Below, in pieces: positions 12,482 through 18,162 of a DNA stretch of 28,900 bases; positions within the stretch are counted from its first letter, which is position 1; each line of letters opens with the position of its first letter. The translations under genes were made by a program, and so were the position numbers. The notes beneath the pieces were generated by a model that had not been told where the DNA came from, searched no databases, and saw only the letters and a list, made by a program, of their open reading frames with translations. Source of the stretch: a virus; the IMG/VR virus record IMGVR_UViG_3300041411_000161, positions 1-28,900 of that record; one strand, written 5' to 3'.

Positions 12482-15400
12482 ATGAGCGAATTAACCATCA
12501 GGTCGCCTAATGGCGCATGGGTTGACATTTGCGCCAGCGAATGGAAAGTTCTGCAAGACGATGGTACGTGGAAAGAAATTGACCCAACGAACGATTTGCG
12601 TGTTCGCCACGGATCGAATGATTATTGGCTTCAAATCAATTGTGATCAGGACGCGGCCTATTGCCCTCCGGAACAATTGGCGGATTGCTGGCCGGGATAT
12701 AGCGGCAATTTCGATAGCTCCGAATTCAAACCGGGTGGTGAAACTGGTTATTTGGTGTGCGATTGCGATGGTTTGAATTGCAAAACGTACACCGGCCACG
12801 CACCAACCTACAATATTTCTGGCGGTCGTTTCGTTTCCACCAGTCCACGCATTGATAAAACTGTCGCATATGCTTTGCCGACTACGCTGTTTGGTCACGA
12901 AGCAGAAATCACTGAGATTTTGGTTTACGCTGGCACACGTAGCGGCCATATTGAAGTGAGTGGATTGGAACTTGATCCGGGCGTGCGTTTCCGCGTTTAC
13001 AACGACTGCGTTTTGCTCGGTGATTCCGAAGTTAGTGGTGAATATTTCAACGTCTTTTTCAACACGGAACCACCAGAATCAAACGAGGATGATTGCGGCG
13101 AACCAATTCCCGCAAACAACTTCCTGACTGTTCGAATCGACGCACCGAAAGGCTCGCGCTGGCGCGTGAAACTGGGCGATGTGAACGTGGAACAGGCAAC
13201 GAATTTCGAACGTCCTGCACCATGCTTCGGAACCTTTGGCCCGAATCTGCCGTGCTTCGTAAACGATGAAAACTATTTGCTTCCGGGCGATGCTGTTTAC
13301 GAAAATGTTCACTATTTGCCAACCACTGGCCGGGTTGATATCGACCTGACTGTGCAGGGTACGGAACCTGTACATTTCCAAGTGTTTTACAACGGCGGGT
13401 TAATTGGTGAACTGACTACAACGAATAGCGCACAGCTGACACAAGTTGCGGCGACTCTCACTTTCAACCATAACGTGGTTGGTGGTGACAATTTCGTGAT
13501 CATTCGTTATTCGGCACCGCGTCAATATCTGGATTGGCATTACACGATTTTCTGCCCGGATATGCGCGGCTCGCGAATCAACATGATGGAATGCATGGGC
13601 GTTCCCGATCCGGTTCCGTTTGACGTTTTGTGCCGTCCGCTGAATGAATCACTTGATCCATATTACGCAATTATCAGCCAAGGCGCACACACCGCAGATA
13701 TTTATTACGACTACGCGGGTAAAGCTCGCGGTGATATCGTGGTGGAGTATTTCGTAACGGATGCGGTGCAATTTCTGTTTTACCAAGGCAGCTATCCGAA
13801 CGAAACTCTGTTGGCCGGTACGGTTGCAACCATCAACGGACACAATCGTTTTTACTTCCGATTCGAACCGCAAAATGGTTCCGTAGTTCACGTGCGCATT
13901 ATTGGCCCGTGCTGCCCGGATTGGGCGTTCACCATGAGTTGCCCGGTGCCACCGCCTGTACTGAACATTTACGACGCGGAAATTACGCGTGGTTCGAAAG
14001 GCCAAACTTCCTATCTGTGTTTTGATGCGATTTTGGAAAACAAAACTCCGCGTAGAACCACATTCGATTGGGACTTAACGCCGCTCACTGCAATCGAATC
14101 CACTAACGGCACTTGCACCGTTACCGAAACCGTCCCGAACTCGCCATTCTGCAATATTTTGGCGACGGGTTCCGGCGTTGAAGCAGGTTCGTCAAACGAT
14201 CACAATATCGGTTATTCATGCTACCGAATTCGTTCGAGTTTGCATTCACCGAACTGCGCGGTCGGTGGTCAGTATTACGTTGTAGAAACAGAAATTGAAT
14301 TGCCCTACACAGGCACATACACAATGCACGGCTGCGCGGATGACAACATGACCGTGTATCTCGATTGTGTTCCGAAAATGTACGCCGGATCGTGGGAAAG
14401 CACTACCCGTGTTGCGATCACTGCAAATGCTGGATGGCAAACGCTTTCCATGATGTACCAGAACGTCCCGAACTGCACACCGGGTTGGGCGAAAATGGTA
14501 ATCACCGATAGTTCGGGTGCAGTTGTTTTTGCAACGAATCCGTATACGCATTTGTGGCGTTCGAAAGTCGGTGGCATTACCGTAAACCCACCGCCGCTGG
14601 CAATTACCTACGGCGCGGATTACAACCGTGTTGCGGGTCAGGGTGTTATCGAAGCCTGTACGGATTCAACGCGAATTTGTGTTCCGGTTTGCGGCACGGA
14701 TTTGATGGGGCCTGACGTAACTTTCCAAATCAATTTGAGAAACCTGACGACTGCCGAACCGGGTAAAATGTCGGCCATCGGTACAATCAAAAATATCAAC
14801 TATTTTGATTGTAGTCAGAATCCATTGGATGCGGTTTCCGGTTACGGCCTGAACTCGTATATCAACCGTGGTGCATACAACATGTACACGGGCGACCTGT
14901 TGACCTATGGTTCTGGTCAGAAAATGATGGAAGCCGATATCAATATTCCGGCGTCTGGACTTTATACGTTTTTCTTCCACGGAATGGATAACGCAGTTCT
15001 GACAATGGATTGCCAACAAATCGCGGCAGTTAGTGGTGCTGGCGGTGGTGTTCGTGCATGGGCTCCTGCGAATAGAGGTTTCCGGAAATTCGCAATCACC
15101 TACGGAATGAACGCTTCAAATGCTGCGCGTCCGGGTTATGCTGCACTCGTAATTATGGATACACAAAATCGCGTTGTTTACGCTTCGCATCCTGCACACT
15201 GGCGCGGCAAAGTCCTCAATGCTGGTACGCCGCCAAGCTGCAATCAGTTTGCAAATAACTGTTTGATTTCTGGCAACTCGATTCAGGAACAGCAGAGCGG
15301 TGGCGGTGGTTCTACCGGTTACACGGTCGGTTACGGATCTGTGCAAGTGCGTACTTCTTTGCACGGCAACGGACACCAACCAAACGGCATTAACTATTCG

Positions 15401-16128: not shown

Positions 16129-18162
16129 ATGTCGAATAGACTGACGCGGTTGCCTTCCTCGATGATCAGCACGCAGGGTTCCTCAATCGGGAATATCCTG
16201 CGTGATACTGGTGAAGTTTTTCAACCGAGTGAAGAGCGCAAAAATGCTACAGGCACATTAAAAGCAGCGGAGTATGATCGCGAAACAGGTTTGTTGAAAC
16301 TTACAAACTCTGACAATTCCGTGATTCTTGTTCCCGGTCTTTTGACTGCTGCAAATATCGGTATTGGCGCAACCGGGCCAACCGGGCCACAAGGCGATAA
16401 AGGTGTAAACGGTCGTGATGGAAAAGATGGGCGCGATGGTGCAATGGGTTGTATCGGCCCGAAAGGTGACGTTGGCCCTGCTGGCCCTGCTGGTGGTTAT
16501 GGTGGTATCGGCCCCCGTGGCCCTGTAGGCCCAACCGGCCCACAAGGCGCGCAAGGTTTGCCCGGTGAAAAAGGCGACATTGGTGTAACCGGCCCCCAAG
16601 GTGCAACAGGCCCACAAGGTTTGGCTGGTCAAGCAGGCCCAACCGGGCCACAGGGAACAATCGGTTTAACCGGTGCAACTGGCCCCAATGGTGCAAAAGG
16701 TGAAACGGGTGCAACAGGCCCAACCGGGCCACAAGGTGAAACGGGTGCAACAGGCCCCGCAACACAAGGCCCGCCCGGCCCCGCTGGCCCAATCGGCGTT
16801 GGCATACCCGGCCCCGCTGGCGCTGCACCGATTTACACGAATGAATCGTGGCTTCATTCCGATCCGCGTGTAGGCCGTTATCACTCGGTTGAAGTCGGTG
16901 ATAAAACTTTGGAATTGAACGGGCATTTTGTTGCAAGTTCTTCGACGCAGGATATTTCGATCACGTTGGATTTTAACGGGCTTGGTGCGCGGCGTGTAAT
17001 TCCGTACATCAGCTTTAATAAATTTCCAGCGGAATTGCGTGGGGCAACTGGTAACTATACGGTCAACGCACAAAATACCGTGGACGGCGATTCGACTTGC
17101 ACGGTCACGTTTAACGGTGCGCAGGCTTTTGCCAGTTTGGATTTCAACTGGTCTGTGAAATTGATGGAAACTTCGCTCACACCTGATATGACCATTGGTG
17201 ATACAGGCCTCGAAGGTACGCGTCCGGAAGCGGGCCAGACTTCGGAAATCACGTTCCCTGTGAGCATCGCGCAAGACACTGACGAAAATGTTTTGGTGGA
17301 TTACGAAACTGTTTCTGACGATGCCGTCGGCACCATGATTGATGCCCCGAATTCGGCAGAAATTCTCAGTGTTTGGCACACCGCATCTGGCGGGGATTAT
17401 TTCCCACCTTCTACCAGCATTCCTAACTCGAACGACGGCGCTGCACTGGTCTTCGATAATGGCCGCATTGAAGTTCAACGAAATACTGTCAGCTACGTTA
17501 TGTCGCTGTCGCCAGTTTCGTACAAGAATTTCACGATTGAAGCTGTCGTTGGTTCTACTGACGCAGACAATGATGCGGTGGGTATGGTTGTTGCGTATGT
17601 GCGCAAAGATGGCATGAACCATTCGATCATGGCCCTGCGTAATCAGGGTGGTGCTGGTGGTCTGGCACCGTTGAAAAACTTCATGCTGGTTTATGTGCGC
17701 AATAACGTGGTCGTGAAGAATTTGGCTTCGGTCGATATCGGCGCAACCGCAGGCGCGTGGAGTGGGAAAACTTCGAAAATTCAAATCGTGCGTGCTGGTG
17801 ATTTGGTCAGCGCATATGCCAGCGATTGGAATAGCGCGACTGTGAATGCAACTCCGATCACAGTCGATTTGAACAGCGATCCAGATTTGGCGATCTTCAA
17901 AGATTGGTGCCGGTTTGGTTTTGTTGCTCAATCGCAAGCCTTCGCGTTCTTCGATGACATTGTGTTCACTCAACCTGCAAATCCTGATTACGTTACAGCC
18001 TTCGGTTCGGTTGCAATTGCGCCGGGTGAAACCAGCGTGGATATTCCTGTTACCCTTAACGGTGCAGGGCCTCCGGCTCCGGATTTTGTTAACGTGTTGG
18101 TACGCCTGTCGAATGCACGTAATGCTAACCTGATTAATGCGGTAGGCACCGGTACATTCTGA
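16129..18162 (+). CDS. Collagen-like phage protein 4 with split Calx-beta and lectin-like domain
   Basis: This 677-residue protein has a weak site, AATAGG at 16115-16120, 8 bases before the ATG. The head (1-79) begins [16 protein letters not shown] and ends with [20 protein letters not shown]. Residues 80-230 hold about 49 Gly-X-Y triplets, broken only near the end (ATQ and a GV step). Residues 235-346 are a beta-rich neck. Residues 347-405 look like the first half of a Calx-beta domain ([29 protein letters not shown]). Residues 406-617 are a concanavalin/LamG-like domain ([36 protein letters not shown]). Residues 618-677 complete the Calx-beta ([38 protein letters not shown]). It is probably a trimeric rod presenting a lectin-like domain. 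A strong terminator follows immediately. Confidence 0.94.
16366..16818 (+). repeat. Collagen-like Gly-X-Y tract, about 49 triplets
   Basis: The longest collagen tract in the window, residues 80-230. It begins with GPT/GPQ, then [13 protein letters not shown] and a Cys in GCI, then mostly GPT, GPQ, GAT and GET triplets. It is interrupted near the C-terminal end by an extra TQ after GPA and by a truncated GV triplet. Confidence 0.95.
17167..18159 (+). other. Split Calx-beta-like domain hosting a concanavalin-like domain
   Basis: First half at residues 347-405, insert at 406-617, second half at 618-677. The second half is an especially good match to the canonical DYxxxxGxVxxxxGExxxxI and LSNAxNAxIxxxxGTGT pattern of Calx-beta. 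The insertion sits where the canonical repeat has a short loop between the YxTxDGTA-like strand and the DY motif. Confidence 0.65.

Follow-up and report, generated by a model that had tools for sequence, protein, structure and literature searches.

Two adjoining tail genes with intact open reading frames (ORFs) in the virus record IMGVR_UViG_3300041411_000161, whose 28.9 kb analysed here (positions 1 to 28,900) are called the window, each carry a Calx-beta domain that is split at the same loop, and the two inserts that part its halves are unrelated. The first gene encodes a 1204-residue protein (12482-16096) and the second a 677-residue tail-fibre protein with collagen repeats (16129-18162). 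The tail-gene order of the window is that of the Pseudomonas jumbo phages HRDY3, Lu11 and PaBG, the source being a jumbo phage of the Lu11/HRDY3/PaBG type, i.e., of the giant Pseudomonas type, and orthologues of both proteins lie side by side in HRDY3, Lu11 and the relatives L009, L010 and L173. The two genes are laid out as follows.

12482..13948, + strand: 1204-residue protein, N-terminal part before Calx-beta (residues 1-489), conserved in orthologues
13949..14095, + strand: Calx-beta first half (residues about 490-538, including C513), by profile, model and orthologue evidence
14096..14596, + strand: inserted PA14-like domain (residues about 539-705, 167 aa; PA14 core about 588-693), by Pfam PA14 (E 2.9e-4), Foldseek and VIA
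14597..14788, + strand: Calx-beta second half (residues about 706-769, including C733), by profile, blind-scan and model evidence
14810..16075, + strand: three more PA14-like repeats, tandem and un-nested, by BLASTP with the nested PA14 as query on the remaining protein (E 6e-12 to 2e-8)
16129..16824, + strand: 677-residue protein, N-terminal domain and collagen-like repeats (residues 1-232), by Pfam Collagen (E 5e-17) and phrog_8745, tail fiber protein (E 3e-74)
16825..17166, + strand: domain preceding Calx-beta (residues 233-346), by alignment to PaBG gp250
17173..17331, + strand: Calx-beta first half (residues about 349-401), by joined-half profile, blind-scan and profile-profile evidence
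17338..17976, + strand: inserted concanavalin A (ConA)/LamG-like domain (residues about 404-616, 213 aa), by AlphaFold2 (AF2) model and structural match to CBM66 4b1m
17977..18159, + strand: Calx-beta second half (residues 617-677, the C-terminus of the protein), by joined-half profile, blind-scan and profile-profile evidence

The initial annotation had proposed that in each protein two distant segments are the halves of one Calx-beta domain, around a concanavalin-like insert in the 677-residue protein and a PA14-like insert in the 1204-residue protein, with the break after a YxTxxxA-like strand and before the DY motif in both. All of this was upheld, with the boundaries refined to those given above, and in both proteins the joined halves matched Calx-beta better than either half alone.

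In the 677-residue protein, neither half by itself had a match in Pfam up to E 10, and Pfam found neither Calx-beta nor LamG in the whole window proteins or in the unjoined inserts. When the two halves were joined, Pfam Calx-beta was matched in one alignment spanning the junction (E 4.5e-5, 23.9 bits), and this match was gone when they were joined in swapped order. Against a profile built solely from other phages' contiguous Calx-beta domains, ten in all (the contiguous-phage profile), the joined halves scored 47.2 bits versus 10.8 and 29.8 for the single halves, a level reached by 0 of 500 shuffles of either half; and in a blind scan that joined every two segments separated by 60 residues or more, the claimed pair ranked first of 14,196. 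Profile-profile comparison (hhalign) of the joined halves with contiguous Calx-beta gave 98.5% (E 3.8e-15), and their profile also matched NCX1 in the PDB (E 1.3e-9). The AF2 model of residues 335-677 (predicted local distance difference test, pLDDT, 81.7; predicted template modelling score, pTM, 0.78) placed strands in both halves, and it agrees with the independently made BFVD model of I1TQP4 (675 aa, 58% identity, taken as the Lu11 orthologue on length and identity) over 330 columns, with a template modelling (TM) score of 0.92 and a root-mean-square deviation (rmsd) of 1.9. The modelled insert matched CBM66 4b1m in the structural search (VIA; Z 16.8, rmsd 2.7 over 159 residues), and thus has the fold of ConA-like lectins and CBM66 at an identity of only about 15%.

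For the 1204-residue protein of the window, the joined halves gave no Pfam Calx-beta match and scored 24.2 bits against the contiguous-phage profile, versus -0.4 and 21.3 for the halves. The joined orthologues from Lu11, L010 and HRDY3 reached 34.2, 26.1 and 45.5 bits against the same profile, each with 0 of 500 shuffles attaining the score, and the profile-profile comparison with contiguous Calx-beta gave 96.2% (E 2.4e-9). The AF2 model of residues 485-776, made from an alignment that left out the PaBG first-half rows, superposes on NCX1 CBD1 (3gin_B; Z 11.3, rmsd 2.8) with 110 residues aligned across model positions 6-290; as the part outside the insert amounts to only about 110 residues, both halves of the predicted structure must contribute. 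The window first half is weak by sequence alone, and it is the structure and the orthologues that carry the identification. The insert of this protein stays below the curated cut-off of Pfam PA14 (PF07691; 21.1 versus 24 bits), yet it has the fold of the PA14 domain of Marinomonas MpAFP and of Epa adhesin A domains (Foldseek) and is hence called PA14-like. Its best structural match is the tail-tip chain 8vjh_B of Chi, a phage attaching to flagella (VIA; Z 14.4, model 78-218); identity to MpAFP PA14 and to 8vjh_B is low, and the copy in the 1204-residue protein differs from them in sitting inside Calx-beta.

The same split recurs among the relatives. In seven of seven (three 1204 orthologues, PaBG gp248, NCTB BN7874_132 and two 677 orthologues) the claimed pair ranked first in the blind scan, and it was first in eight of all nine proteins scanned, being second in the window 1204-residue protein. 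The joined halves of NCTB BN7874_132 (49.0 bits), of the L010 677 orthologue (34.9) and of PaBG (31.7) lie above the Pfam Calx-beta (PF03160) cut-off of 27 bits. Whatever the insert, all nested cases listed have a first-half match ending at profile positions 42-47 and a second-half match starting at 43-47. The chain is thus broken, in both window proteins too, between the VxVDYxTxxxxA strand and the DY motif, in a loop that we take, from the known structure of NCX1 CBD1, to be the CD loop, located where that domain binds Ca2+. One cysteine in each half (C513 and C733 in the window) co-occurs in the same 9 of 26 alignment rows, which are exactly the 1204-type domains with all their payloads; the paired columns fit one fold and serve as supporting evidence only, the rows sharing ancestry.

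The joined halves thus resemble Calx-beta (PF03160; NCX1 CBD1, integrin beta-4) in profile and fold and differ from it in their discontinuous chain and in the acidic Ca2+ ligands, most of which are missing. Of the presumed ligand positions of NCX1 CBD1, the D of the DY motif is the only one retained in the two window copies; they lack the acidic EF-loop cluster and also the C-terminal DDD, the latter being present in PaBG, L014 and L024. Because of these absences, Ca2+ binding like that of CBD1 would not be expected in the window copies. The Ca2+ site is not required for the Calx-beta fold.

At the orthologous site of the 1204-residue protein, the payload of Calx-beta differs between phages. 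It is PA14-like in the window, L009, L010, Lu11 and HRDY3; an alpha/beta domain alone (229 residues) in L173 (L173:2739-6530); and an alpha/beta domain with LamG inside in PaBG, L014, L024 and L039-L043. In PaBG gp248 (L003:4138-7791), the canonical Calx-beta halves lie about 445 residues apart, and between them are the alpha/beta domain and a LamG-like domain homologous to the insert of the 677-residue protein. When its LamG is omitted, the PaBG alpha/beta domain can be aligned to the uninterrupted insert of L173 (38.6% over 236 residues, E 2e-50); the L173 insert also aligns with a domain of Noxifer (E 4e-25) that lies outside any Calx-beta. In PaBG gp248, therefore, the LamG is nested in the alpha/beta domain and the latter in Calx-beta, a three-level nesting, Calx[alpha/beta[LamG]]. 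L173 also has the PA14 copy closest to the nested one of the window (46% identity over 144 residues), located downstream at residues 979-1120 and outside Calx-beta. A PA14 tree had too little support to place the root of the nested copy; of the copies outside Calx-beta, repeat 2 of L173 is nearest to it.

Heads of the LamG-like family, which has dozens of phage copies, occur widely among phage contigs (L004, L006, L008 and L021-L073), and in PhiPA3 gp235, PS119XW and SCTP-2 the head stands downstream of the alpha/beta domain and outside Calx-beta. In a tree of 51 phage copies, the LamG domains of the 677 type and of the PaBG type are sister clades (support 100/97); therefore, closely related heads sit in the holders of two different neighbouring genes. 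A fourth form of payload is found in NCTB BN7874_132 (L015:1-3390), with an insert of about 360 residues in Calx-beta and a contiguous Calx-beta in the adjoining gene; used as a query against the viral contigs, the NCTB Calx-beta gave no match. An intein was considered as the insert of this protein and rejected, its intein/Hint-like match lying near the C-terminus (residues 935-1004), outside the insert.

How common the nested form is was surveyed with a scan keyed to the second half of Calx-beta only. In 78 bacterial loci, 410 domains were contiguous and none was nested, the sole unpaired match being truncated by the contig end. The viral survey gave 22 contiguous and 10 nested domains, the latter comprising eight of the PaBG type, several of them nearly identical, and two from L173. 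Accordingly, the nesting observed in this analysis is limited to a small number of large-phage lineages.

We propose, with a probability of roughly 80%, that the split Calx-beta sandwich is a holder whose heads have been exchanged over evolution in two adjacent tail-fibre genes, a reading that the comparison of relatives supports. The chain would lay down the first Calx-beta strands, leave through the CD loop between the YxTxxxxA strand and DY, fold a separate beta-sandwich head (ConA/LamG-like in the 677-residue protein, PA14-like in the 1204-residue protein), and then return to complete Calx-beta. Both ends of the head would in this way be fixed on one side, and the opposite, presumably ligand-binding face may project away from the fibre; for the 1204 head this direction is tentative, the confidence of its model being modest (pLDDT 70.4, pTM 0.54). 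The holder would be retained while the heads change at the same loop in orthologues, among PA14, an alpha/beta domain (Rossmann/ThuA-like) and an alpha/beta domain with LamG. Judged from the CBM66-like and PA14-like folds, the heads may bind sugars or a receptor on the host surface, and selection on host range may drive the exchange. More tentatively, and at somewhat less than even odds, the Calx-beta CD loop could be a recurrent socket of jumbo-phage tails, into which recognition modules, even nested ones, are recombined with the backbone unaltered.

Several observations weigh against a holder with exchanged heads, and they bear on three alternatives. The first holds that the inserts are structural, stabilising or trimerising the fibre or setting its spacing, that they bind no host receptor, and that their exchange is neutral drift of modules. 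It is favoured by the alpha/beta payload, which is not an evident lectin and has no evident ligand-binding role (its Pfam match to ThuA has an E of 0.016 only, and no PDB relative was found by sequence), and by the three other tandem PA14-like repeats that the 1204-residue protein already has. We consider it unlikely nevertheless, as the inserts have the folds of known sugar-binding modules (CBM66, MpAFP PA14) and comparable inserts bind ligands or aid adsorption in RTX adhesins and evolved Dit proteins (PMC10865825, PMC12077191, PMC10688798). The initial annotation had spoken of glycan-binding heads exchanged on a Calx-beta holder: the exchange stands, with PA14, alpha/beta and alpha/beta[LamG] at one orthologous site, whereas glycan binding is putative for the LamG-like and PA14-like heads, on their folds, and the alpha/beta payload shows no evident lectin character.

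According to the second alternative, holder and head move as one nested cassette, and heads are seldom exchanged in a holder already in place. For the 677-residue protein, holder and head may indeed have arrived as a single unit, because Calx-beta and LamG are both missing from PaBG gp250, whose N-terminal part is 46% identical to it: gp250 stops shortly after the segment matching residues 233-346, a domain only weakly alike, and just before Calx-beta would begin. All LamG copies of the 677 type also form one clade. On the 1204 side this account does not fit, as the orthologues of the window, Lu11, L173 and PaBG keep Calx-beta and the N-terminal part (70% identity to Lu11; 32% over 499 aa to L173, E 4e-75; 26% over 363 aa to PaBG) while the payload differs. 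Weakened there, it seems to us improbable as a general explanation, and less likely than a structural role.

Against the split itself it can be said that both window copies fall under the Pfam cut-off, that the joined HRDY3 1204 orthologue reaches only 15.8 bits there, that 7 of 500 shuffles of the window 1204 first half, weak alone, reach the joined score, that the claimed 1204 pair is second of 33,411 in the blind scan (26.5 versus 27.5 bits), and that for the 677-residue protein only LamG-type structures appeared among the VIA matches listed. No solved Calx-beta was seen there for the 677 halves because LamG filled the match lists; this leaves a Calx-beta fold of these halves compatible, and their sequence evidence is strong. 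The evidence, which the initial annotation had judged stronger in the 677-residue protein, is so by sequence, whereas by structure it is the 1204-residue protein that matches a solved Calx-beta more directly. A reading of the segments as two small independent domains, or as a chance likeness, is very improbable in view of the blind scans, the shuffles, the profile-profile results, the NCX1 superposition across both halves and the constant split position in all nested cases, and is effectively refuted for the 1204-residue protein.

A holder with exchangeable heads has precedents. Split Ig-like domains of RTX adhesins (MpIBP, FrhA, AhLap) project PA14 and other ligand-binding domains, and further nesting is known there, a vWFA domain having its own insert (PMC10865825, PMC12077191). 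The likeness lies in a discontinuous beta-sandwich from which a second domain, PA14 in MpIBP, leaves by a loop with both ends of the head on one side. The holder there is a BIg-like Ig domain of a bacterial adhesin, whereas here it is, by profile and NCX1 match, Calx-beta in jumbo-phage tail proteins, and the function of the head is putative. The window proteins are moreover not type I secreted adhesins with extender repeats and an RTX C-terminus; RTX was absent from their Pfam scan, and their neighbourhood consists of phage tail genes. They may thus work like the RTX split Ig-like domain, and we do not file them as members of that family. In the evolved Dit of lactococcal and other phages, carbohydrate-binding module inserts inside a conserved core aid adsorption and vary between phages (PMC10688798; PDB 5ly8). 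The host domain there is Dit and not Calx-beta, and we claim no homology; general Pfam and PHROGs scans of the window proteins, which included no comparison aimed at Dit, found no Dit family.

The initial annotation knew of no described nested form. This stands for Calx-beta as far as the open-access literature goes, in which we found no description of a nested or split Calx-beta, or of Calx-beta in tail fibres (subscription journals being mostly outside the scope), and a 2026 survey of domain insertion does not mention Calx (PMC13114784); the principle of a split holder, on the other hand, is already published for RTX adhesins and evolved Dit (PMC10865825, PMC12077191, PMC10688798).

Around the two genes, four collagen-repeat proteins are clustered in the window (7517-8317, 10845-11849, 11872-12387 and 16129-18162), of which the last three have a common N-terminal domain of the LTRxPxxM type and look like paralogous fibres. 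The 677 orthologue of HRDY3 (XDJ15036.1, L001:5986-8019) is labelled N-acetylmuramoyl-L-alanine amidase; its NCBIfam matches are collagen-like only, and therefore the name is probably wrong. Further downstream, the adjacent ORFs at 23312-24472 and 24486-25538 are similar to each other, the first matching the tail-sheath family phrog_12249, and HRDY3 has two neighbouring genes annotated as tail sheath.

Domain searches overlook split domains, and proteins of this kind are consequently annotated as hypothetical or, as with the HRDY3 amidase, probably wrongly. Once the split Calx-beta is recognised, the fibre heads of jumbo phages, whose receptors are mostly unknown, can be expressed with clean boundaries, and the series of payloads at one orthologous site opens head exchange to a direct test. 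The split-holder design of RTX adhesins is thereby seen in phages with another fold. If the CD loop is indeed such a socket, these phages would be able to change their receptor-recognition heads while the backbone of the fibre stays unaltered.

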